A stretch of DNA of 64,000 bases from Xanthomonas rydalmerensis. GTDB taxonomy: Bacteria; Pseudomonadota; Gammaproteobacteria; Xanthomonadales; Xanthomonadaceae. The notes below the pieces were generated by a model. The model saw nothing but the letters and a program-made list of their open reading frames with translations. It had not been told where the DNA came from and ran no database searches. Position 1 is the first letter of the stretch. Every line of letters starts with the position of its first letter. Shown here in pieces: positions 26,884 through 41,148 of this stretch. Made by a program: the position numbers and the translations under genes. Location: NCBI RefSeq assembly GCF_033170385.1, contig NZ_CP126170.1:1574001-1638000 (forward strand), written 5' to 3'.

Positions 26884-29800
26884 TCACACCGGCGGCAGGC
26901 TGCCGCCGTTGTGCACCAGGGTCAGGCAGGCGTGGCGCTGCATCTGCGCCAGCGGCTCCTGCAACGCGGCCAGCACCTGCTCGGCCTGCGCGCCGAGCAC
27001 CGGCCGGTACGCCGCCCAGCCGTTGCGGCCCTTGGCCTTGGCCTGGTACAGCGCGCGGTCGGCCAGCACCAGCAGTTGTTCCCAGCCGAGCAGGTTGTCC
27101 GGGTCGTGCACGAACGGGAATTCGGCCAGCCCGATCGAGCAGGTGACCCGGCCCTGGCGGCCGTGCTCGAGCACGAACGGGTGCGCGGCCACCGAGCGGC
27201 ACAGCCGTTCGGCAGCCATGGTGAGGTTTTCGCGCGGCGCCGAGCGCAGCACCAGCAGGAATTCTTCGCCGCCCCAGCGCACTACGTAGTCGCTTTCGCG
27301 GGTCAGCCGCACCAGCAACTGCGCCATCTGCTGCAGCACGGCATCGCCGGTGTGGTGGCCGCCGCTGTCGTTGATCGACTTGAAATGGTCGATGTCGATC
27401 AGCGCGAACAGCATGCCCGAGGACAGCATGTCCTCGTCGTTGGCGGCCATGCGCCGGTACAGCGCGATGTCGCTGGGGATGTGCAGCGACAGGTAGCGGC
27501 GGTTGCGCAATTGGGTCAGCTCGTCGGTGAAGCTGGCTTCCTGCAGGCGCTGGTTGGCCGCCTGCAGCGCCTGGGTGCGCTCATGCACCTGGCGTTCCAG
27601 GGCGTCGCGCTGGCGCCGGTTGTGCAGCCGCGCCAGGGCCAAGGCGCTCAGCAACAGGGCGAACGCGCCCAGCGCCAGCAACAGCCGGTAGAGCAGCGTT
27701 TCCTGGAAGCGCAGTGCGATCCGCAGCGGCAGCCGCGCCGGCGCTGCCGCCCAGACGCCGGCGTTGTTGCTGCCGGTCACCTCGAACACGTAGTCGCCGC
27801 CGGGCAGATTGGTGTAGCTGACCGCACGTTGGCGGATGTCGTCGAGAGTGCGCCAGTCGCGGTCGTAACCGAGCAGGCGGTAGCGTAGCTCGACGTTCTG
27901 CGGCGCCTGGAACGAGGCGGCGGTGAACTCGAAGTCGAGGTCGCGCGCGCCTTCCGGCAGCGGCGCCGGCAGCGCCTGCGGCGTCAGCCACTGCCCCAGG
28001 GCGCGCACCCGCTCCACTACCGGCTGTGGTGCCACCGGATTCTTGACGATGCCGGCGGTGTCCAGTGCGACCACGCCGTCGCGGCTGGGCAGCCACAGCG
28101 CGCCGTGCTCGATGAAACCCTTGCCGTTGCCGGCGCCGTTGCAGCACATGCCTTGCACGCCGCCATGGCGCTGCGCGCGCTCGGTCAACATCAGTTCGGC
28201 GTTCAGCGGCGCCTGCGGCGATGCCGCGTGGCGCTGCAGGTTGGCCAGGCGCACGCGGTAGACCCCGCGCAGGCCGGCCACCCAGATCGCGCCGTGGCCG
28301 TCGTCGGCGATGAAGAACGCGGCGTTGACCGGCAACCCGTCCTGCTCGCCGAATGCATACCAGTGCCTGCCGTCGAACAGCCACAACTGCTCGTTGAGGG
28401 TGCCGACCAGCCACTGCCCGCCGGGCAGTTCGTGGATGGCGGTGATGTCGGCGCTGGCCAGCGCCGAGCCCGGCGGGGCCAGCGCGATCAGGCGCTCGCC
28501 GCGCAGTTCGTACAGGCCCGACTGCGCGCCGACCAGCAGGCGCCCGTCGCGGGTCTCGTGGACCAGGCGGATGCGCGGATCGCGCAGGCCCTCGGCCGTG
28601 CCGTAGCGGCGCAGCCGCGCGCCGTCGGCGCGGAACAGGCCGTCGTCGCTGGCGAACCACAGCCGCTGCGCGCGGTCGCGGGCGATGCCGCTGATCTGCA
28701 GGTCGCGCAGCGGGGCCAGCCAGGCGGGCTGACTGAGCCGGCCGTCGCGGAACAGGGCGGCGCCATGGCGGGTGCCGATCCACAGCTGCCCGGGTTCGGC
28801 CAGCAAGGTGTAGGGCGCCTCGTTGCGCAACTCCGCCAGACTCACGCGCTGCTGGTAGCGGCTATCGCGCAACTGCGACAGGCCGCTGTCGGTGCCGACC
28901 CACAGCGATCCATCCGGATCGCGCGCCAGGGTCCACACCAGCGCGTCGTCCAGCCCTTCGTGGGTGCTGTAGCGACGGGTCCAGCCGTTCCACAGCCGGG
29001 TCGCGCCGTTCCAGCTGCTGCCCAGCCACAGGTTGCGTTCGCGGTCCTCGAAGATGGCGTTGACGCCGATGTTCGGCTTGCTCTCCGGGTTGCGTTCGAC
29101 GATGGCGCCATCGCGCACGCGCAGCAGCGCGCCGGGCAGCCCCACCCACAGGTTGTGGTCGCTGTCCTCGAACAAGGCCTGCACTGCGCGCCGGCTCAGG
29201 TCGGCGGCATCGGGCAGCCATTGCCAGCGTCCGTCGCGGCGCACCAGCAGGCCGTCGCGGGTGCCGGCCCAGATCGTGCCTTGCGCCTCCAGCAGGTGCT
29301 GCACCGGCGTGGCGCCGGCCTCTTGCGGTAACGGCAGCGACACCGGCGCGTCCTGGCCGGCGACGAAGCGCAGTACCGCGCCGCGCGTGCCCACCCACAG
29401 CGCGTCGGCGCGCGGCAACAGCGTGTAGGCGCCGCCGGCGATGCGGTAGCGCAGTTGCAGGCGATCGCCCTGTACGGCGTACACGCCATCCTGCGCGGCG
29501 ACCAGCACGGTGCCGCGCGCGTCGGTGGCGATCGCCTCGATGTTGAGCAGCGGCGCCTGCGGATCCTGCGGCAGCAGCGTGGTAAAGCGACCGTCGCGGT
29601 AGCGGGACAGGCCGCGGTAGGTGCCGATCCACAGCGTGCCGGCGGCATCCACGTGCAGCGCCTTGATCAGGTTGCCGGGCAGGTGCGCCGGCGCGCCCTC
29701 GTTGAACGAGGTCATGCGCACACCGTCGAAGCGGGTCAGTCCGCCCATCGTGCCAATCCACAGATAGCCCTGATGGTCCTGCGCGAACGCCTGCACGCTC

Positions 29801-29970
29801 AGCTGCGGCAGGCCCTGGTCCAGGCCCCAGCCTTCGCGTTCGTAGTGATTGAACTGCTTGTCCGGTTGCAGGGCCCGCGCCTGCGGCACACACGCGCTCC
29901 ACGCTGTCGAGAGCATGGCCAGCTGTAGCGCCAGCAGGCGCCAGGAGGCGTATGGGAACCGCAAGAGCAT
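26884..29970 (-). CDS. Beta-propeller sensor diguanylate cyclase
   Basis: Membrane receptor of 1028 residues that should make c-di-GMP. A signal peptide (about 1-33) leads into a periplasmic 14-blade two-component-regulator propeller (repeats such as GYLWIGTMGGLTRFDG, GTLWIGTYRGLSRYRDG, GSLWVGTDSGLSQLRD), a Y_Y_Y domain (about 690-770, LRYRLLGYDRDW), one transmembrane helix (about 780-802), a coiled coil and a GGDEF domain. The active-site motif is GGEEF (about 900-904), and the inhibitory RxxD site (RESD) sits exactly five residues before it, so product feedback is expected. The signal sensed is unknown; propeller sensors often detect sugars. sdaA lies upstream on the same strand, separated by two hairpins. 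Confidence 0.92.
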   Translation of the reverse strand: MLLRFPYASWRLLALQLAMLSTAWSACVPQARALQPDKQFNHYEREGWGLDQGLPQLSVQAFAQDHQGYLWIGTMGGLTRFDGVRMTSFNEGAPAHLPGNLIKALHVDAAGTLWIGTYRGLSRYRDGRFTTLLPQDPQAPLLNIEAIATDARGTVLVAAQDGVYAVQGDRLQLRYRIAGGAYTLLPRADALWVGTRGAVLRFVAGQDAPVSLPLPQEAGATPVQHLLEAQGTIWAGTRDGLLVRRDGRWQWLPDAADLSRRAVQALFEDSDHNLWVGLPGALLRVRDGAIVERNPESKPNIGVNAIFEDRERNLWLGSSWNGATRLWNGWTRRYSTHEGLDDALVWTLARDPDGSLWVGTDSGLSQLRDSRYQQRVSLAELRNEAPYTLLAEPGQLWIGTRHGAALFRDGRLSQPAWLAPLRDLQISGIARDRAQRLWFASDDGLFRADGARLRRYGTAEGLRDPRIRLVHETRDGRLLVGAQSGLYELRGERLIALAPPGSALASADITAIHELPGGQWLVGTLNEQLWLFDGRHWYAFGEQDGLPVNAAFFIADDGHGAIWVAGLRGVYRVRLANLQRHAASPQAPLNAELMLTERAQRHGGVQGMCCNGAGNGKGFIEHGALWLPSRDGVVALDTAGIVKNPVAPQPVVERVRALGQWLTPQALPAPLPEGARDLDFEFTAASFQAPQNVELRYRLLGYDRDWRTLDDIRQRAVSYTNLPGGDYVFEVTGSNNAGVWAAAPARLPLRIALRFQETLLYRLLLALGAFALLLSALALARLHNRRQRDALERQVHERTQALQAANQRLQEASFTDELTQLRNRRYLSLHIPSDIALYRRMAANDEDMLSSGMLFALIDIDHFKSINDSGGHHTGDAVLQQMAQLLVRLTRESDYVVRWGGEEFLLVLRSAPRENLTMAAERLCRSVAAHPFVLEHGRQGRVTCSIGLAEFPFVHDPDNLLGWEQLLVLADRALYQAKAKGRNGWAAYRPVLGAQAEQVLAALQEPLAQMQRHACLTLVHNGGSLPPV

Positions 29971-30043
29971 GCCAATGCCGGATCGGCTGACGTCTCTTGC
30001 GTTAGCGGCACCGCCGCGCGGATCTTTATCCGCGCAGCGGCGG

Positions 30044-30073
30044 GGACGCTGGCGATCGCGAGGGCCAGCGTCC
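30044..30073 (-). terminator. Hairpin after sdaA
   Basis: Ten-bp stem GGACGCTGGC / GCCAGCGTCC with a 10-base loop, 11 bases after the sdaA stop. A second GC-rich hairpin (30011-30040) follows. Together they should separate sdaA from the sensor gene. Neither has a long T-run. Confidence 0.6.
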
Positions 30074-30084
30074 ATTGGGATGGT

Positions 30085-31467
<1,383 letters not shown>

Positions 31468-31553
31468 GCGCGTGCCGAAGGGGTGGCGAAAGACCGTCTA
31501 TTCTATGCTTCCGGCGCGCGGCACAGGTCCGCAGCGCAGCATTGGACGCGAGC

Positions 31554-31793
31554 ATGTCCCTGACCCTATACCAGCGCGACGACTGCCATCTGTGCGACCA
31601 GGCCCTGCAGGTGCTGGCGCAGGCGCGCGTGGCCGAGCCGCACAGCGTGTTCATCGACGACGACGCGGCGCTGGAGGCGCGCTACGGCGTGCGCGTGCCA
31701 GTGCTGCGTGCCGCCGACGGGCGCGAACTGGATTGGCCATTCGATACCGCCGGCGTGCGCGCCTGGCTGGCGGCCTCGGCCGAACGCGCCTGA
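31554..31793 (+). CDS. Glutaredoxin-like protein (DUF836)
   Basis: Short thioredoxin-fold protein of 79 residues with the redox motif CHLC (Cys12 and Cys15 of MSLTLYQRDDCHLC), a cis-proline in VRVPVL and a shortened C-terminal helix. This DUF836 group is common in gamma-proteobacteria; substrates are unknown. The start at 31554 gives the expected strand just before the motif. It is divergent from sdaA and convergent with the yceI operon, sharing the interval that contains the yceI terminator. Confidence 0.88.
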   Translation: MSLTLYQRDDCHLCDQALQVLAQARVAEPHSVFIDDDAALEARYGVRVPVLRAADGRELDWPFDTAGVRAWLAASAERA

Positions 31794-31801
31794 GCCGCGC
31801 A

Positions 31802-31839
31802 TAAAAAAAGCGGCGGACCCGACGAGGAAATCCGCCGCT
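31802..31839 (-). terminator. Rho-independent terminator of the yceI-cybB-yceI operon
   Basis: On the minus strand: AGCGGCGGA, 13-base loop, TCCGCCGCT, then seven T. A classical intrinsic terminator 31 bases after the yceI stop. It may also stop the convergent glutaredoxin gene. Confidence 0.9.
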
Positions 31840-31869
31840 CAGCGGCCGCGCGCCGCGGCCTGTGGCGAA

Positions 31870-32439
31870 TCACTTCGCCTTGAACACCACCTTGGTGCTG
31901 ATCGCGGTTTCGTTGGGGATGGTCTTGGTGTCGGACCAGTCGCCGCCGCCCACGCCGAAGTCCAGGCGCTTGACCGTGGCCTTGCCGGCCAGCACCGGCT
32001 GCGCGCCCGGGGTCCAGGTGAAGGTCAGGGTGACCGGCTTGGACACGCCGCGCAGCTCCAGGGTGCCGTCGGCGGCGAACTGATTGTTGCCCAGCGCGCG
32101 GAACTTGTCGGCGCGGTAGTGCGCGGTGGCGAACTTGGCGACGTCGAAGAAGTCCGCGCCCTGCAGGGTGGAGTCGCGGTCGGTGTTGCCGCTCTTGGCG
32201 CCGGCCAGCGGGATGGTCACGTCGAGCTTGGCGCCGGCCAGGTTGGCCGGGTCGAAGCTGAGCTTTGTGTCGAAGCCGGGGAACTGGCCGGTGAACACTT
32301 CGCCGTCGTACTTGCTGGCGAACACCAGGGTGGAGCCGGGGGCCTGCACATAGTCGGCGGCCCGCACCGCGGGGGCAGCGGCGAGCAGGGCCACCAGACT
32401 GGCGGCGACGGCGGCGGGGGACGCGAAACGGGTCGACAT
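31870..32439 (-). CDS. YceI-family periplasmic protein (third gene of operon)
   Basis: Lipid-binding beta-barrel (lipocalin-like) protein of 189 residues with a signal peptide (about 1-27, VRAAD). Family motifs: GSTLVFASKYDGEVFTGQF near the N-terminus and GTLELRGVSKPVTLTFTW. YceI proteins bind long isoprenoids such as ubiquinone in a hydrophobic tunnel. It follows cybB by 12 bases. Co-transcription with a quinol-oxidising cytochrome and a second YceI suggests joint handling of quinones in the periplasm. Confidence 0.92.
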   Translation of the reverse strand: MSTRFASPAAVAASLVALLAAAPAVRAADYVQAPGSTLVFASKYDGEVFTGQFPGFDTKLSFDPANLAGAKLDVTIPLAGAKSGNTDRDSTLQGADFFDVAKFATAHYRADKFRALGNNQFAADGTLELRGVSKPVTLTFTWTPGAQPVLAGKATVKRLDFGVGGGDWSDTKTIPNETAISTKVVFKAK

Positions 32440-32451
32440 CGAAACAGCTCC

Positions 32452-33018
32452 TCAGGATTTGGGGGTGAGCCAACCGCGCGGCAGCATCCGCGCCAGGGTG
32501 GCATCGCGTTGGAACAGGTGGTGGTAGAAGGCGGCGCCGGCATGCGCCAGGACCACCGCGATCAGCAGCCAGAAGCCCCACTCGTGCACCGCGTGCGACA
32601 GGTCGCGCAGGTGTTCGTTCGGGGCGCTGAGCTTGGGCACCGCGACCAGGCCGAACCAGCGGAGCGGGCGCAGGCCGCTGCTGGAGTCGTACAGCCAGCC
32701 GGACAGCGGGATGGCGAAGATCATCACGTACAGCAGCACGTGGGTGGCGCTGGCGATGCGTTCCTGCCAGCCGGGCGTGCCCGGCACCGGCTTGGGCGCG
32801 CCGGCGTACAGGCGCCAGCCCAGCCGCACGATCACCAGCGCCAGCACGGTCAGGCCCAGCGACTTGTGCGCGGTGTAGACCCAGAAATACTTGGGCGTCT
32901 TCGGCAACTCGCCCATGGTCAGGCCGACCACGCCAAGCAGCAGGATCAGCGCGGCAATCAGCCAGTGCAGGGTCTGGCTGACGCTGCCCCAGCGTTCGGG
33001 AGTGTTGCGCGCGCTCAT
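32452..33018 (-). CDS. Cytochrome b561
   Basis: Di-haem inner-membrane cytochrome of 188 residues with four transmembrane helices. Candidate haem ligands are His18 (QTLHW), His51 (YTAHKSLG), His145 (HAVHEW) and His159 (VVLAHAG). E. coli CybB transfers electrons from superoxide to ubiquinone, so a similar redox function is plausible. Its start overlaps the stop of the upstream yceI gene (ATGA), and another yceI follows 12 bases downstream. Start at 33018 (MSARNTPERWG). Confidence 0.93.
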   Translation of the reverse strand: MSARNTPERWGSVSQTLHWLIAALILLLGVVGLTMGELPKTPKYFWVYTAHKSLGLTVLALVIVRLGWRLYAGAPKPVPGTPGWQERIASATHVLLYVMIFAIPLSGWLYDSSSGLRPLRWFGLVAVPKLSAPNEHLRDLSHAVHEWGFWLLIAVVLAHAGAAFYHHLFQRDATLARMLPRGWLTPKS

Positions 33019-33680
33019 GGCGTGCCGTCCTGCGCTGCCGGCGTGCGGGTGTCGGTGGGGGCGGTTGGCGTGGTACTCGGCGCCGGATCCGGCTCGGCCT
33101 TGGCGCCGCCTTCGCGGGTGGCTTCGGCCTCGATGCGCAGCTCCACCGTGCCGCCGATCACCGACGGCCAGGCACTGATGCCGAAGTCGGCGCGCTGCAG
33201 CGTGGTGGTGGCGGAGAAGCCGGCGGTGCGGCGGAATGGCGGCAACGGATGGCGCTTCACTGCGTTCAGGGTCACGTCCAGGGTCACCTCGCGGGTGACG
33301 CCATGCAGCGTCAGCTGCCCGATCACCTTGGCGTGCTGCGCATCGATCGGCTCGACGCGGGTGGAGATGAACTGCGCCTCCGGGTAGTGCTCGCCGTCGA
33401 GCAGGTTGTGCGCCAGCGCGGCGCGGTTCCACTTCTCGTCGCCCAGGTCCAGCCGCTGCAACGGCACCCGCGCCTGCAGCCGCGCGCTGCGCCAGTCGTC
33501 CGGATCGAACACCAGGGTGCCGGTGCTGCCGGACACGGTGCCCAGCGCCTTGGAGAACCCGGCGTGCTCGATCGCGAACAGCACCCGCGTGTGCACCGGG
33601 TCCAGCGCGTACTGCGCCGGCGCGGCGAGGGCGGCGCCCGGCAAGGCCAGCAGGAGGGCCACGAGAGAGGGTTTGAGCAT
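33015..33680 (-). CDS. YceI-family periplasmic protein (first gene of operon)
   Basis: Protein of 221 residues: signal peptide (about 1-19, PGAALA), then the YceI barrel (YALDPVHTRVLFAIEHAGFS, GQLTLHGVTREVTLDV, FSATTTLQRADFGIS) and a Pro/Thr/Ala-rich, probably disordered tail from about residue 188. It differs from the second YceI in its DPVHT start and its tail, so the two are not recent duplicates. Translationally coupled to cybB. It heads the operon; the promoter should lie in 33681-33780, upstream of which the first sensor kinase runs the other way. Confidence 0.92.
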   Translation of the reverse strand: MLKPSLVALLLALPGAALAAPAQYALDPVHTRVLFAIEHAGFSKALGTVSGSTGTLVFDPDDWRSARLQARVPLQRLDLGDEKWNRAALAHNLLDGEHYPEAQFISTRVEPIDAQHAKVIGQLTLHGVTREVTLDVTLNAVKRHPLPPFRRTAGFSATTTLQRADFGISAWPSVIGGTVELRIEAEATREGGAKAEPDPAPSTTPTAPTDTRTPAAQDGTP

Positions 33681-33905
33681 GGAGCGGGGCCGCGCTGGGA
33701 GGTCGCCGGATTCTAGTCACAGTCCGGGCCGGCTGCGTACCTGCGCCGCGTAACGGTTCGTTGCACGCTGCGACAGGTGTGATTTTTAGGCCGCCGCGGG
33801 GTATAAGAACGCTGCCGCGGCGAGCGGCACACGGAGCGGGCGCCCTGCGCGTCCGGCCCCGGCAGTGCGCCGGTGTTCATCCGCCGACGTCCTTTGCCGG
33901 AGCCG

Positions 33906-36900
33906 ATGTCCATGTCCATCCCGCATCCCCCACGCCGGTGGCGCTGCTGGGGGCTGGCCTGCCTGCTGGCGCTGGCCGGTCTGTGCGCCGATGCCTGGGC
34001 CGGGGTGCCGGAGCTGCCGCGCTTCCGGGTGTTCTCCAGCGAGCAGGGGCTGCCGTCCAGCGACATCTCCGCGCTGCAGCTGGACCGCGACGGCTACCTG
34101 TGGATCGCCAGCGGCGATGGCCTGGCCCGCTACGACGGGCGCGAGTTCCGGGTCTGGCGGCACGACCCGGCCAATCCCGCCTCGCTGCGCTGCAACTACG
34201 TGCAGGACATGCACATCGACGCGCGCGACCGCATCTGGGTGGCCTGCGAGGGCGGCGGGCTGAGCGTGCTCGGCGCGGACCGGCGTGGCTTCCGCCACTT
34301 CAACATGGCCACGCAGCCGGCGATGCGCAGCGACGAGGTGTTCGCCATCGCCAGCCGCGGCGGCGCGGTGTTCTTCGGCACCTACCGCGGCGGCCTGTAT
34401 CGGCTGGGCGGCGATGGCCGGGTGCAGCGCATCCGCGCTGGCGATCCGAAGGTGGACGCGCTGCTCGACAGCGCGGTGCTGACCCTGGCCTTCGACGACG
34501 CCGGAGTGCTGTGGGTGGGCACCTTCAAGGGCCTGGTGCGCTACGACGGCCAGCGCGTCAGCGCCTACCGCATCGACGACGGCACGCCGGACAAGGCGCA
34601 GGTGATCACCTCGATCACCCCGCTCAGCGACGGCCTGTGGTTCAGCGGCAACACCGGCCTGTTCCGGCGCGACCGCGCCGGGCGCTGGCTGCGCGCGGAC
34701 TGGGCCGACGCCCTGCACCGCGCGGTCAGCACGATCGCCGAGGACGGCGCCGGCGGCTACTGGCTCGGCAACGGCGAGGGCCTGTGGCACAAGCCGGCCG
34801 ACGGGCCGGCGCGGCGGGTGGACACCGGCGGCGCGGCGGTGTCCGGCGCCAGCGTGGTGGAGGCGGTGCTGCGCGACCGCGAAGGCGGCCTGTGGGTGCC
34901 GCTGCCGACGCGCGGCCTCGGCTATCTGCGTCCGGACTGGCGTCGCCTGGCGGTGCTGGGCACCGCGCAGGGCCTGCCTGCCGACCAGTACGTCGGCCTG
35001 GCGCCGGCGCGCGCCGGCGGCGTGTGGCTGCTCGGTTCCGGCGCCAGCGTGTTCCGCCTCGACACCACCAGCGGTGCGCTGAGCGCGCCGCACTGGGCCA
35101 ACGGCGCGCCCAATGGCCGCATGCTGTCGGTGCTGGACGATCCGCGCGGGGCGTTGTGGATGGGCGGCAGCGCCATGCTGCTGCGCGGTCCGCTCGACGG
35201 TGGCCGCCTGCAGCGCTGGACCCGCAGCGCCGGCGAAGCCGATGCGATTCCGGACGGCACGCTCGCCTGGCTGCAACTGGACGCACGCCAGCGGCTGTGG
35301 ATCGCCGCGCCGGGCTACGGCGTGCAAGTGCGCGATGGCGACGGCCACGTCCTGCAGAACCTCCCCGGCGGCCAGCACGGTCTGGCCGGGACCGACATCG
35401 CCGCGTTCGCGATGTCCCCGGACGGCACGCCGTGGGTGGCCGACGAACAGCTCCAGCACTGGGACGACGCGGCCGGGCGGTTCCGCACGCCGCCGGAACT
35501 GGCTGGCGAGAAGGTGCAGTCGTTCGCCTTCGCCGACGCTCGCACGCTGTGGGTGCACCGGCTGTCCGGGCTGGAACTGTGGCGGCACGACGGCACGCAC
35601 TGGCAGCGCAGCCAGCGTTACGCGGTAGCCGAGGGGCTGCCGGCCACCGAGTCCAGCGCGCTGGTCGCCGATCCGCAGGGTCGCGCCTGGCTGGGCATGC
35701 GCCGCGGCCTGTTCCGGGTCGATCCGCGGCACACCCCGGCGGTGCGCGCGTTCGGCACCCGCGACGGCCTCGGCAGCCAGGAACTGGCGCGGCGCGGCCT
35801 GCTGATGACCGCCGACGGCGTGCTGGTGGCCGCCGCCGCCGACGGCAGCGTGGCGCTGCTGGACACGCGGCAGCCGGATCCGGTGCCGGTGCCGCTGGCC
35901 TTGAGTATGGAGAGCGTGCAGGTGCGGCGCGGCCCGCAACTGCTGAGCCTGCCCACGCGCGGCGACTTCACCCTGCGCTCGGACGACCGCGACCTGCGCG
36001 TGGCGGTGCGGCTGCTGTCCTACATCGACCCCGAACACATCGTCTACCGGTTCCGCCTGCCGGGCTACGACCGCGACTGGGTCAGTACCGGCGCCAGCGG
36101 CGAACGCATCCTGCCGCAGCTGCCCGACGGTGCGCAGGTGCTGGAGATCCAGGCGCGCACCCGCAACGGCGCCTGGTCGCCGACGCTGCGCCTGCCGTTC
36201 CAGGTGCAGCCGCCCTGGTGGCGCAGCGTCTGGGGCATCGTCGGGCTGCTCGCCGCGGCCTGCCTGCTGCTGCTGGTGTCGCTGCGCGCCTACCGGCGGC
36301 GCCTGGGCCGCCAGCACGCCTGGGAGCTGGCCCTGCACAAACAGGAACTGGCCGAGCAGGCCTCGTTGGCCAAGACCCGCTTCCTGGCCACGCTCGGCCA
36401 CGAGGTGCGCACGCCGCTGACCGGGGTGCTGGGCATGAGCGAGCTGCTGCTGGCCACGCCGCTGGATCCCAAGCAGCGCGGCTACACCGAGTCGATCCGC
36501 CGCGCCGGCACGCACCTGCTGCACCTGGTCAACGACGCGCTGGACCTGGCGCGGATCGAGGCCGGGCGCCTGCGCCTGGAGTCGCAGCCGTTCGCGCTGC
36601 AGGCGCTGATCGCCGAGGTGGTCAACCTGATGGCGCCGCTGGCGCAGGCGCGCGGGCTGCGCTTCGATCTGCACGACGCCATGCCCGGCGCGACCACGGT
36701 GGAAGGCGATGCGCTGCGCGTGCGGCAGATCCTGCTGAACCTGCTGGGCAACGCGATCAAGTTCACCAGCAGCGGCTCGGTGGCGCTGAAGGTGGCGCCG
36801 GCGCAGGATGGCCAAGGGCTGTGCATCGAGGTGGCCGACACCGGCCCGGGCATCGGCGCCGAGCAGCAGGCGCGGTTGTTCCAGCGCTTCGAACAGGGCG

Positions 36901-37478
36901 ACGGCCCGCGCACCGCGGTGCGCCAGGGCGGCAGCGGCCTGGGCCTGGCGATCAGCCAGGAACTGGCGATGGCGATGGGCGGGCGCATCCAGGTCGAGAG
37001 CCGGCTCGGGCACGGCGCGCGCTTCCGCGTGGGCCTGCCGCTGTGCTGGCGCCCGGCGCAGGAGCCCGCGGTGGTGCCGGCGGTGGCCCCGCGGGCGCGC
37101 ACCGCGCTGCGCATCCTGCTGGTCGAGGACGAACCGACCGTGGCTCAGGTGATGGTCGAGCTGCTGCGCGGCCGCGGCCATCAGGTGGCCTGGGCCGCGC
37201 ACGGCCTGGAGGCGCTGACCGAAGCCAGCCAGGGCAGCTTCGACATCGGCCTGCTCGACCTGGATCTGCCGGCGCTCGACGGCCTGGCGTTGGCACGGCA
37301 GTTGCGCGCGCTGGGCCACGGCTTCCCGCTGCTGGCGGTGACCGCGCGCTCCGACGGCGAGGCCGAGTCCGCGGCGCGCGCCGCCGGCTTCGCCGGGTTC
37401 GTGCGCAAGCCGGTCACCGGGCAGATGCTGGAGGCCGCCATCGACGCGGTGCTGGACGGCGCGCCGCCCCGGCTCTGA
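33906..37478 (+). CDS. Beta-propeller hybrid sensor histidine kinase 1
   Basis: Membrane kinase of 1190 residues. A signal peptide (about 10-35), periplasmic propeller repeats (GYLWIASGDGLARYDGREF and ten or more others), a Y_Y_Y domain (YRFRLPGYDRDW), one transmembrane helix (WGIVGLLAAACLLLLVSL), a HisKA domain with phospho-acceptor His832 in LGHEVRTPLTG, a HATPase domain (NLLGNAIKFT, DTGPGIG, GGSGLGL) and a C-terminal receiver with phospho-acceptor Asp1118 (LLDLDLP) and Lys1168 (RKPVT). No HPt or DNA-binding domain. Three ATGs are possible (33873, 33906, 33912); 33906 is chosen because it gives the cleanest signal peptide. The next gene is a close paralogue in tandem. Stimulus unknown. Confidence 0.92.
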   Translation: MSMSIPHPPRRWRCWGLACLLALAGLCADAWAGVPELPRFRVFSSEQGLPSSDISALQLDRDGYLWIASGDGLARYDGREFRVWRHDPANPASLRCNYVQDMHIDARDRIWVACEGGGLSVLGADRRGFRHFNMATQPAMRSDEVFAIASRGGAVFFGTYRGGLYRLGGDGRVQRIRAGDPKVDALLDSAVLTLAFDDAGVLWVGTFKGLVRYDGQRVSAYRIDDGTPDKAQVITSITPLSDGLWFSGNTGLFRRDRAGRWLRADWADALHRAVSTIAEDGAGGYWLGNGEGLWHKPADGPARRVDTGGAAVSGASVVEAVLRDREGGLWVPLPTRGLGYLRPDWRRLAVLGTAQGLPADQYVGLAPARAGGVWLLGSGASVFRLDTTSGALSAPHWANGAPNGRMLSVLDDPRGALWMGGSAMLLRGPLDGGRLQRWTRSAGEADAIPDGTLAWLQLDARQRLWIAAPGYGVQVRDGDGHVLQNLPGGQHGLAGTDIAAFAMSPDGTPWVADEQLQHWDDAAGRFRTPPELAGEKVQSFAFADARTLWVHRLSGLELWRHDGTHWQRSQRYAVAEGLPATESSALVADPQGRAWLGMRRGLFRVDPRHTPAVRAFGTRDGLGSQELARRGLLMTADGVLVAAAADGSVALLDTRQPDPVPVPLALSMESVQVRRGPQLLSLPTRGDFTLRSDDRDLRVAVRLLSYIDPEHIVYRFRLPGYDRDWVSTGASGERILPQLPDGAQVLEIQARTRNGAWSPTLRLPFQVQPPWWRSVWGIVGLLAAACLLLLVSLRAYRRRLGRQHAWELALHKQELAEQASLAKTRFLATLGHEVRTPLTGVLGMSELLLATPLDPKQRGYTESIRRAGTHLLHLVNDALDLARIEAGRLRLESQPFALQALIAEVVNLMAPLAQARGLRFDLHDAMPGATTVEGDALRVRQILLNLLGNAIKFTSSGSVALKVAPAQDGQGLCIEVADTGPGIGAEQQARLFQRFEQGDGPRTAVRQGGSGLGLAISQELAMAMGGRIQVESRLGHGARFRVGLPLCWRPAQEPAVVPAVAPRARTALRILLVEDEPTVAQVMVELLRGRGHQVAWAAHGLEALTEASQGSFDIGLLDLDLPALDGLALARQLRALGHGFPLLAVTARSDGEAESAARAAGFAGFVRKPVTGQMLEAAIDAVLDGAPPRL

Positions 37479-37569
37479 GGCGATGCGGATCCGGTTGCCA
37501 GCGCCGGCGCTTATCGCCGACGATGGGGTGGTGGCGCGGGACGGACGCCCGTCAGGGGAGACAGAGGCG

Positions 37570-40500
37570 ATGCGGTCGAGACGGATCTTGGGATGGCTGC
37601 TGCTGGCGTGGTCCGCGGTCGCTGGCGCGGCAGTGCCGCCGACGCCGCAGCCGCGCCAGCTGACCGTGGCCGACGGCCTGCCGTCCAACAGCATCAATGG
37701 CTTTGCCGAGGACAAGCTCGGCTACCTGTGGCTGGCCAGCAGCGACGGGCTGGCGCGCTTCGACGGACGCGGCTACCGCATCTGGCGCATCGAGGACGGC
37801 CTGCACGCCAACAAGATCTGGTCGGTGCACGTCGATGCGCAGAACCGGGTCTGGTTCGGCACCGACGGTGCCGGCCTGGGCATGCTCTCGGCCGACCGCC
37901 GGCAATTCCGCTACTACGACAGCAGCACCTATCCGCAGATCGGCGGCACCACGGTGTGGGCGATCGCCTCCACGCCGGACGGCAGCGTCTGGTTCGGCAC
38001 CGCCACCGGCGGCCTGCACCAACTGCGGCCGGACGGCCGCCTGCGCCGCTTCATGCCGGTGCCCGGCGACGAACGCAGCCTGCCGTCGGCCACGGTCATC
38101 CATCTGGCGACCACGTGGGACGGGACCCTGTGGGTCGGTACCCGCGACGGTCTGGCGCGCTGGACCGGGCACGACTTCCAGCGTGTCGACGCGGCCGCGC
38201 TGCCGCACCCGGAAGTGCAGGGGCTGACCCCCGAACGCGACGATACGCTGTGGGTCTCCACCCAGGGCGGAGCGCGCCTGCTGCGCGCCGATGCCAGCGT
38301 GGTGGAGCCATACTGGCGCAACATGCCCAGCGAGAGCGTGCTGGGGATGCTGGTCCACGACCGCCATGGCACCCGCTGGTTCGACACCATGGACGGACTG
38401 GGCCGCGAGAGCGAGTCGGGGGTGATCCGTAACGTGCCGCTGTACAGCAACTCCGCGCACGGACTGGTCAAGCCGAACTGGTCGCTGGCGTTCGAGGACC
38501 GCGAGGGCGGCCTGTGGTTCGCCAGCACCAATGCCGGCCTGTGGCACCTGCCGGCCAACTGGCAGCAGTTCTCGGTGCTGTCCCACCGGGTGGACGACCC
38601 GGAGTCGATGGGCAATCCCTACGTGCAGGCCACTGCCGCCGCCCGCGACGGCGGCGTGTGGCTGGCCGGCACGCGCGGGGTGCTGGACAAGCTGGACCCG
38701 GCCACCGGCGTCGTGCATCGGCACATGCAGGCGATGTTCGGACGCAACTGGTCGCGGGCGATCGCCGAGGACCCGCAGGGGCGGGTGTGGGCGGCGGCCT
38801 GGGGCGCGCTGTTGCGCTACGACCCGGTCAGCGGCGAGGTGCGGCGCTGGGGCAGCGACGCCGGTGCCGATGCGGCGATTGCGTCGCAGGTGCAGCGGAT
38901 CGCCTTCAGCGACGATCGCCACGTCTGGATCTTCAGCGACATCGGCGGCGTGCAGGTGCGTGACCTCGACGGCCACGTCCTGCGCGACATGGCGCCGGGC
39001 ACCGACGGCCTGCCCGCGGAACTGGTGGTGGACGAGGCCCAGCCCGGGCCGCAGGGCCAGCCCTGGGTGCTGGGCCGTCACGGGCTGCTGGCCTGGAACC
39101 CGGCGCGCGTGCGTTTCGAGCCGGTGCCGGGTGCGCCGCGGCGTCCGCTGAGCGCCTTCGCGATCAGCGACGGCAATGTGGTCTGGCTGGCCAGCGTCGG
39201 TTGCCTGGAGCGTTATCTGTGGGATGGCAGCCGGCTGAGCCTGCTCGACCGCATCGATGCCGAACAGGAGTTCCCGGCGCTGGCGCCGAACGGCCTGGTC
39301 GTCGATGCCAGCGGCGTGGCCTGGCTGAGCAGCATGCGCGGGCTGATCCGGGTCGATCCGGCGAGCAAGGCGATCCGCTCCTACGGTGTGCACGATGGCC
39401 TGCCCAACCAGGAGTTCTACGCGCGCACCCTGGTGCAGGCGCGCAGCGGGCAGATCCTGGGCGGCACCCCGGATGGCGTGGTGCTGTTCGAGCCGTCACA
39501 GGTGGTGCCGTCGCGGCGGCAGCCGCCGCTGGTGATCGAGCGCATCGGCGTGCGCCGCGGCGAGCGCGCGCTGGACCTGCTGCACGCCGACCGCATCGTG
39601 CTGCAGGAAGGCGACCGCGATCTGCACGTGGTCGCGCGCCTGCTGTCGTTCTCCGACACCGACGCCAACACCTATCGCTTCCGCCTCAGCGGTTACGATC
39701 CGGACTGGGTCGATGTCGGCGCCAGCGGCGAGCGTCTGTTCTCGCGGCTGCCGTCGGGCCACTACACCCTGGAGATGCAGGCGCGTACCGCCGACAAGGT
39801 GTGGTCGAAGGTGATCACGCTGCGCTTTCGCGTGCTGCCGCCGTGGTGGCGCAGTCCGTGGGGCGTGGCCGGGCTGGCGGTGCTGGCGGTGCTGGCACTG
39901 TGGCTGCTCGCCTACCTGTACCGGCGCCGCCTGCGCCGGCGCGCCGCCTGGCAACTGGCGGTGCACAAGCAGGAGGTGGCCGAGCAGGCCTCGCTGGCCA
40001 AGACCCGCTTCCTGGCCACGCTCGGCCACGAGGTGCGCACGCCGATGACCGGGGTGCTGGGCATGAGCGAACTGCTGCTGGCGACGCCGCTGGATCCCAC
40101 GCAGCGCCGCTACACCGAATCGATCCGCGACGCCGGCTCGCATCTGCTGCGCCTGGTCAACGATGCGCTGGACCTGGCGCGGATCGAGGCCGGGCGCCTG
40201 GAACTGGAGCAGCAGCCGTTCGACCTGGGCCGGCTGATCGCCGAACTGGAGGCGATGATGGGGCCGATGGCGCGTGGCCGCGGCCTTGCCTTCGCCCTGG
40301 ACAACGCCATGCCGCCGCAGGTCACCGCGCGCGGCGACGCCACGCGGGTGCGGCAGATCCTGCTGAACCTGCTCAACAACGCCATCAAGTTCACCGAGCA
40401 CGGCAGCGTGGAGTTGCGGGTGGCGCCGCTGCAGCCGCAGCAGGGCGTGCGCTTCGAGGTCGCCGACACCGGGCCGGGCATCAATGCCGAACAGCAGGCG

Positions 40501-41148
40501 CGGCTGTTCCAGCGCTTCGAGCAGGCCGACGGGCCGCGCACTGCCGCGCGCTACGGCGGCAGCGGCCTGGGCCTGGCGATCAGCCAGGAGCTGGCGGTGG
40601 CGATGGGCGGACGCATCGAACTGCGCAGCCGCCTCGGTGCCGGCACCCGCTTCCTGGTCGAGCTGCCGTTGCCGTGGACGCCCGAGCCGCTGCCGCAGGC
40701 GCCGCGCGACCTCCGCGCGTCCACCAGCGCCGCGACGCCGCGGCGGATCCTGCTGGTCGAGGACGATCCGACCGTGGCCGAGGTGGTCGGCGGCCTGCTG
40801 CGCGCGCGCGGCCACCAGGTCACCCACGCTGTACACGCATTGGCCGCGCTGACCGAAGCGGCGGCCAGCACGTTCGACATCGCCTTGCTGGACCTGGACC
40901 TGCCCGGTCTGGACGGCCTGGCGCTGGCGCGGCAGTTGCGCGCCTTCGGCTACGGCATGCCGCTGATCGCGGTCACTGCCCGCGCCGACGCCGACGCCGA
41001 GCCGCAGGCCCGCGCCGCCGGCTTCAGCGGCTTCCTGCGCAAGCCGGTGACCGGCGAGATGCTGGCGGAGGCGGTGGAGGGGAAGCCGGGACCGGGGACT
41101 CGGAACCCGGGACCCGGGGAAAGCGACGGTCGCCGTGAAGCCACATAG
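37570..41148 (+). CDS. Beta-propeller hybrid sensor histidine kinase 2 (tandem paralogue)
   Basis: Protein of 1192 residues with the same order as the upstream kinase: signal peptide (about 1-19, SAVAGAA), propeller repeats (GYLWLASSDGLARFDG, NRVWFGTDGAGLGML), Y_Y_Y (YRFRLSGYDPDW), transmembrane helix, HisKA with His820, HATPase, receiver with Asp1108. The kinase halves are almost identical across the dimerisation helices, while the propellers differ, which is what one expects of duplicated receptors with different ligands. The last 21 residues after VEG are low-complexity (KPGPGTRNPGPGES) and arise from an intergenic repeat. The start at 37570 begins the signal peptide. The two genes are 91 bp apart and probably co-transcribed. 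Confidence 0.92.
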   Translation: MRSRRILGWLLLAWSAVAGAAVPPTPQPRQLTVADGLPSNSINGFAEDKLGYLWLASSDGLARFDGRGYRIWRIEDGLHANKIWSVHVDAQNRVWFGTDGAGLGMLSADRRQFRYYDSSTYPQIGGTTVWAIASTPDGSVWFGTATGGLHQLRPDGRLRRFMPVPGDERSLPSATVIHLATTWDGTLWVGTRDGLARWTGHDFQRVDAAALPHPEVQGLTPERDDTLWVSTQGGARLLRADASVVEPYWRNMPSESVLGMLVHDRHGTRWFDTMDGLGRESESGVIRNVPLYSNSAHGLVKPNWSLAFEDREGGLWFASTNAGLWHLPANWQQFSVLSHRVDDPESMGNPYVQATAAARDGGVWLAGTRGVLDKLDPATGVVHRHMQAMFGRNWSRAIAEDPQGRVWAAAWGALLRYDPVSGEVRRWGSDAGADAAIASQVQRIAFSDDRHVWIFSDIGGVQVRDLDGHVLRDMAPGTDGLPAELVVDEAQPGPQGQPWVLGRHGLLAWNPARVRFEPVPGAPRRPLSAFAISDGNVVWLASVGCLERYLWDGSRLSLLDRIDAEQEFPALAPNGLVVDASGVAWLSSMRGLIRVDPASKAIRSYGVHDGLPNQEFYARTLVQARSGQILGGTPDGVVLFEPSQVVPSRRQPPLVIERIGVRRGERALDLLHADRIVLQEGDRDLHVVARLLSFSDTDANTYRFRLSGYDPDWVDVGASGERLFSRLPSGHYTLEMQARTADKVWSKVITLRFRVLPPWWRSPWGVAGLAVLAVLALWLLAYLYRRRLRRRAAWQLAVHKQEVAEQASLAKTRFLATLGHEVRTPMTGVLGMSELLLATPLDPTQRRYTESIRDAGSHLLRLVNDALDLARIEAGRLELEQQPFDLGRLIAELEAMMGPMARGRGLAFALDNAMPPQVTARGDATRVRQILLNLLNNAIKFTEHGSVELRVAPLQPQQGVRFEVADTGPGINAEQQARLFQRFEQADGPRTAARYGGSGLGLAISQELAVAMGGRIELRSRLGAGTRFLVELPLPWTPEPLPQAPRDLRASTSAATPRRILLVEDDPTVAEVVGGLLRARGHQVTHAVHALAALTEAAASTFDIALLDLDLPGLDGLALARQLRAFGYGMPLIAVTARADADAEPQARAAGFSGFLRKPVTGEMLAEAVEGKPGPGTRNPGPGESDGRREAT

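Follow-up and report, generated by a model that had tools for sequence, protein, structure and literature searches.

Two tandem hybrid histidine kinases of Xanthomonas rydalmerensis, here called HK1 and HK2, are most plausibly HtsH-type membrane kinases in an old gene block of their family, with a nearby propeller-type diguanylate cyclase being independent of them; we put the probability of this reading at roughly 0.6. The genes lie in a stretch of 64,000 nucleotides (C1:1574001-1638000 of the 5.04 Mb genome), hereafter the window, and coordinates below are window positions unless a contig or locus is named. A sequence-only reading of positions 26884-41148 had described three large propeller sensors there, and our analysis confirms the observation: the span encodes one Reg_prop/Y_Y_Y/GGDEF protein on the minus strand and two tandem Reg_prop/Y_Y_Y/HisKA/HATPase_c/Response_reg kinases on the plus strand, every domain scoring over its Pfam cut-off. 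The cyclase and the kinases are not contiguous, four minus-strand genes (sdaA, yceI, cytochrome b561, and yceI) lying in between:

26884..29970, minus strand: propeller-type diguanylate cyclase (Reg_prop, Y_Y_Y, transmembrane helix, GGEEF with RxxD); longest open reading frame 26884-30075
30085..31467, minus strand: sdaA, L-serine dehydratase; the cyclase comes after it on the same strand
31870..32439, minus strand: YceI family protein, copy a
32452..33009, minus strand: cytochrome b561
33015..33680, minus strand: YceI family protein, copy b
33681..33905, no strand: divergent intergenic region, putative promoter region
33906..37478, plus strand: HK1, hybrid histidine kinase with a type A propeller sensor and without HPt; longest open reading frame 33873-37478
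37570..41148, plus strand: HK2, hybrid histidine kinase with a type C propeller sensor and without HPt; longest open reading frame 37483-41148

Pfam and hydropathy bear out the architectures that had been read from the letters. The cyclase, HK1, and HK2 have one strong membrane segment apiece by hydropathy (from residues ~797, ~786, and ~794, respectively); a signal peptide, as had been claimed, is likely in all three, both kinases having a hydrophobic N-terminal stretch in the hydropathy profile, whereas that of the cyclase falls under the 1.6 cut-off and was taken as a signal peptide by eye. The likely start codons (ATG ~29970 for the cyclase, ATG 33906 for HK1, and ATG 37570 for HK2) are all downstream of the longest-frame starts, and we favor ATG 33906 because a 7-base difference breaks the GTG-to-ATG frame in 9 of 17 aligned upstream regions; a gap of 91 bp thus separates the HK1 stop at 37478 from the HK2 ATG on the same strand. 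Kinase and receiver motifs are intact in both kinases. Pfam finds nothing after the receiver, whose last residue is 1190 in HK1 (1201 residues long) and 1198 in HK2 (1221 residues long), and hence no C-terminal DNA-binding domain. The output halves of HK1 and HK2 are 71% identical and the sensor halves 36%. Among the matches listed, the best HK1 homologues belong to unclassified Xanthomonas, at 94% across the full query, and an X. sacchari homologue also reaches 94%, in a local alignment covering 56% of the query.

The evidence for the block is conserved gene order. Seven Y_Y_Y matches occur in this genome (the cyclase, HK1, HK2, and four more proteins, each of the four with GGDEF), and three of seven such propeller genes within the span has a simulated P of 0.0006; since P is only 0.07 once the tandem pair is counted as one, conserved order rather than proximity is what counts. 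The family-wide block consists of sdaA, yceI, b561, yceI, the kinases, and hemE, with one to four kinase copies. Over 50 distinct kinase-bearing loci (58 loci, from which five duplicates and four second fragments were dropped and to which the window was added), full-length kinase frames number one in 21, two in 25, three in 1, and four in 3. Within the genus, HK2 is present in 19/19 other genomes and a full-length HK1 frame in 16/19 (missing in G002 and G016, broken in G001); beyond the genus the kinases persist while the cyclase is often absent. Broken kinase copies stand in the arrays of G001 (L103:9222-11241) and G035 (L136:8653-12208), and copies are therefore also lost. We conclude from order and copy number that the locus is an old family block in which kinase copies have been gained and lost. 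A separate observation concerns Stenotrophomonas sp. Ste86, whose array contains two highly divergent additional kinase copies (L075:3238-9851) in which some catalytic motif patterns went unmatched, in a test that is partly positional and may miss motifs.

The cyclase behaves differently from the kinases. Its signature is GGEEF with an RxxD five residues ahead (RESDYVVRWGGEEF), the intact site that had been claimed for it, and both motifs recur in 25/25 cyclase frames found by script, the window cyclase counted; having GG[DE]EF and an RxxD I-site, it is a predicted diguanylate cyclase. By domains (propeller, Y_Y_Y, GGDEF, I-site) it can be likened to Xanthomonas oryzae GdpX2 and GdpX3, as these are described in the accessible part of PMC6637768. 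Comparison of its propeller, with sensor regions trimmed by position, gives the highest scores (214 and 191 bits) for two of the four further propeller cyclases in the genome; HK1 and HK2 follow at 120 and 112 bits, ahead of the other two cyclases at 84 and 67 bits. It adjoins sdaA in all 19 other genomes of the genus. Among 16 other-genus family genomes, a full-length relative of at least 40% identity occurs in seven and is missing in nine, two of which are only 72% and 82% complete. Among 14 named kinase-bearing genomes (14 of 21 named Lysobacterales loci, three of them metagenome-assembled) such a relative occurs in X. chitinilytica and L. segetis and is missing in the other 12, and the searched genomes of X. 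vasicola and X. euvesicatoria yielded none. Because its propeller is nearer to those of two other cyclases than to the kinases, four genes intervene, and it is often absent beyond the genus, the cyclase is probably a separate, more dispensable gene of the sdaA side, independent of the kinases; most likely it would read a different ligand.

The studied system that HK1 and HK2 recall is HtsH1-3 of Lysobacter enzymogenes (Le3071-3073), which according to the accessible part of the report (PMC8463545) are encoded in a tandem operon and bind RpfG, whose phosphodiesterase activity they lower, while HtsH phosphorylation favors binding to an HSAF promoter; the same text reports HtsH homologues in Xanthomonas found by BLAST. 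As far as that text describes them, the two sets share Reg_prop, Y_Y_Y, one transmembrane helix, HisKA, HATPase_c, and Response_reg, a tandem arrangement on one strand, and the presence of RpfC and an RpfG-like protein in the same genome; they differ in copy number (two in X. rydalmerensis, three in L. enzymogenes). RpfG binding and promoter binding are published features of the L. enzymogenes proteins only, and no L. enzymogenes entry appears among the homologue matches listed. By fold, the periplasmic double propeller and Y_Y_Y would bind a ligand, the signal would reach HisKA/HATPase across the single membrane helix, and the phosphoryl group, judging from the intact motifs, would pass to the kinase's own receiver, which would act on a partner in trans. 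At E <= 0.001 the window has no HPt and no receiver besides the two in the kinases themselves. None of the 29 window frames scanned with Pfam has a DNA-binding domain, and both absences agree with what had been noted. With no HPt or DNA-binding domain attached, the output would have to come from the receiver acting in trans. The sequence-only reading had called the target missing from the locus, which is true of the window; the accessible text on HtsH supplies a lead in RpfG, by analogy the best documented candidate partner.

Several points weigh against this reading: i) order conserved within one family may be mere inheritance; ii) the likeness to HtsH, on the accessible text, is one of domain description and gene arrangement rather than of aligned sequence; iii) the ligand and partner of HK1 and HK2 are candidates by analogy; iv) the cyclase stays in the kinase neighborhood in all 19 other genomes of the genus, so that a link within the genus is possible; v) cyclase, HK1, and HK2 occur together in 16/19 of these genomes, and cyclase and HK2 in 19/19, so that the conservation of the triad proposed as a check held within the genus and often failed beyond it through loss of the cyclase; and vi) the output tree described below places the type A outputs of this genus nearer type C, with weak support (81-83).

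The kinases might instead control the adjacent yceI-b561-yceI genes across the shared intergenic region, which we think unlikely. YceI and b561 have periplasmic redox or isoprenoid functions. In 45/50 distinct family loci the full set adjoins the kinases on the other strand, and the divergent arrangement recurs in 4 of 11 order-level loci from other families (those with long sensor matches; G044, G049, and G058, with weaker matches, were left out), two of these four having neither hemE nor sdaA in the fetched stretch. The intergenic region itself (33681-33905) has back-to-back conserved elements that look promoter-like: GATTCTAG on the yceI side in 19/19 aligned regions (this genome and 18 of the 19 others), and TATAAG on the kinase side in all 17 aligned regions with HK1 and in neither of the two without it. 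Against such control, YceI is absent from 5/11 order-level loci and present as a single gene ~1.7 kb away in two, L125, a genome of the family, carries a kinase and no YceI, and the kinases lack a DNA-binding domain. We considered gene order as proof of function and rejected it: hemE and sdaA have the look of housekeeping genes, the order is perhaps inherited, and the five order-level loci without YceI speak against it. Nothing on YceI with b561 in Xanthomonas was found in the open literature, outside which most subscription papers lie.

It is similarly doubtful that HK1 and HK2 are glycan sensors acting, like the HTCS proteins of Bacteroides, on polysaccharide-utilization genes elsewhere in the genome. 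The kinase sensor, a double propeller with Y_Y_Y, matches the fold of Bacteroides BT4663, a heparin/heparan sulphate sensor, and Bacteroides HTCS sensors bind oligosaccharides, according to the accessible part of PMC3243724; like BT4663, BT3049, and BT4673, HK1 and HK2 join a propeller and Y_Y_Y sensor, a transmembrane helix, a kinase, and a receiver in one polypeptide. Unlike those proteins they have no C-terminal DNA-binding domain, and no polysaccharide-utilization genes were recognized beside them in ten neighboring frames scanned, three of which had no family match; the recognized neighbors are an alpha/beta hydrolase, sdaA, YceI, b561, and, downstream of the kinases, an MFS transporter and hemE, and a TonB-dependent receptor is ~18 kb off. 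Of the polysaccharide sensing that had been suggested, the BT4663-like fold is the part that stands.

The proposed comparison of propeller and kinase phylogenies gave a divided answer. The sensor tree has three lineages tied to array position, type A (first in the array; 16 rows, SH-aLRT 100), type B, and type C (last), and the output halves do not simply follow them; both trees were made by a quick method with several long branches flagged. Two Xanthomonas arrays are informative here:

L074:10001-17364: X. vasicola kinase array; copies 3 and 4 differ in sensor halves and share output halves
L077:10001-17402: X. euvesicatoria kinase array; copies 3 and 4 differ in sensor halves and share output halves

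Within each genome the output halves of copies 3 and 4 are 92% identical and agree at 72% (170/235, X. vasicola) or 70% (172/244, X. euvesicatoria) of fourfold sites, counted only where both codons encode the same amino acid, whereas their sensors are 58% identical with 31% fourfold agreement (64/204) in X. vasicola and 46% identical with 37% (59/161) in X. euvesicatoria. Between the two species copy 3 behaves likewise (output 92%, fourfold 70%, 166/238; sensor 49%, fourfold 30%, 49/163), its identity jumping near HK2 residue 720 (63% over 601-660, 66% over 661-720, 88% over 721-780), while copies 1, 2, and 4 have sensors that agree at 89-90% of residues and 68-74% of fourfold sites. Since silent sites are free of protein constraint, recombination is the simplest account of the copy 3/4 pattern, and the propeller half thus appears to have been exchanged by recombination in X. 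vasicola and X. euvesicatoria while the kinase half stayed nearly constant. Against the four L074/L077 copies, 20 hand-picked database proteins and the G035 copy have outputs 86-99% identical and sensors from 44% to 100%, 57 of the 84 sensor comparisons being under 60% (X. citri entry P0192 against X. euvesicatoria copy 3: output 98%, sensor 49%); these were compared as protein, silent-site support covering L074 and L077 only. A search of the open literature, again short of most subscription papers, turned up no paper on exchanged sensors or on gene conversion among Xanthomonas kinases. Gene conversion between HK1 and HK2 themselves was considered and is unproven: their fourfold agreement is 65% in the sensor (93/142) and 76% in the output (156/206) at a third-position GC above 90%, an unclear signal, and a tree constrained to group the 12 tandem type A output halves in a single clade is not rejected (p-AU 0.225).

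A different partner is conceivable, and quite unlikely: the kinases might pass their phosphoryl group to a free REC-HPt protein, a BarA remnant, and thence to a GacA/UvrY-like regulator. Twelve HisKA matches in this genome share a frame with a receiver, three of those proteins having an HPt and nine, HK1 and HK2 among them, having none detected. Of 12 HPt matches, four are in CheA-type proteins that also have CheW, four in a single CheW/REC protein of 2420 residues, taken here to be ChpA/PilL, one in an RpfC-type kinase adjoined by an RpfG-like REC-HD protein, and two in other hybrid kinases; the names RpfC, RpfG, and GacA for this genome's proteins are our assumption. The twelfth, which answers the suggested search for orphan HPt proteins, is in a 237-residue REC-HPt protein (C1:3550685-3551395; L147:2186-2896, plus strand), the sole HPt found outside a kinase. 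Both its domains exceed their Pfam cut-offs (HPt 27.4 bits against 24.6), this HPt being unlisted in a scan of a longer reading frame. Over 214 residues the protein shares 33% identity with the REC-HPt tail of Escherichia coli BarA; its gene adjoins rlmD divergently, an arrangement also seen for E. coli barA, and the protein is near full length in 34/35 other family genomes (with a stop codon in the match in G023) and partial in G032. The GacA/UvrY homologue here is 42% identical, the next protein 33%, and a gacA gene is recorded in X. oryzae pv. oryzicola in the accessible part of PMC6090019. On the other side, nothing links the protein directly to HK1 and HK2, and the seven remaining HPt-less hybrids would serve equally well as its kinases; Pfam may overlook divergent HPt domains; by profile, TorS (54 bits) and ArcB (51) follow BarA (64), the best to span both domains, and a TorS profile reaches 72 bits over the receiver alone, all far under cut-offs; and rlmD directly adjoins the gene in only 6/20 loci, a piece lying ~3 kb off in nine and none being seen in five.

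Joining the two lines, one might tentatively, and with no great expectation, picture a receptor-diversification cassette of constant kinase half and swapped propellers, with its kinases and the genome's other HPt-less hybrids converging on the BarA/GacS-derived REC-HPt protein. The data favor exchange in X. vasicola and X. euvesicatoria but do not extend to HK1 and HK2, and the REC-HPt convergence is conjecture. Were it true, related Xanthomonas species would plug different ligands into one unchanged output. That the cyclase, HK1, and HK2 form one unit feeding related ligands into c-di-GMP and phosphotransfer, as had first been proposed, is improbable: cyclase and HK2 keep company throughout the genus and a cyclase relative stands beside sdaA in 5 of 14 fetched other-genus family loci (elsewhere in two, G025 and G032 being unfetched), but the cyclase and kinase propellers are 26-27% identical and not nearest relatives, and a full-length cyclase relative is missing from the 12 named kinase-bearing genomes and the nine other-genus family genomes counted above.

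Returning to HK1 and HK2 as HtsH-type kinases, we regard the locus as ordinary in itself; its interest lies in its evolution, and the sensor exchange is most worth following. A conserved signaling locus of a large plant-associated family is set apart from a less constant neighbor and tied to a studied system. If sensor exchange is general, the locus would allow species to be compared on the ligand side of one pathway at a nearly fixed output. The REC-HPt protein, for its part, is a concrete candidate partner for hybrid kinases without an HPt.

The four extra propeller GGDEF proteins lie on C1 near 1084k, 1106k, 1800k, and 2595k (L151, L148, L149, and L150). Three of the four have the GG[DE]EF motif, the 2595k protein not fitting the pattern, and the 1084k protein has Y_Y_Y over the cut-off in the genome-wide search and is unlisted in a second domain scan. 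Across the class, a Y_Y_Y match over the cut-off occurs in 14 of 274 sampled genomes, that of X. rydalmerensis counted.

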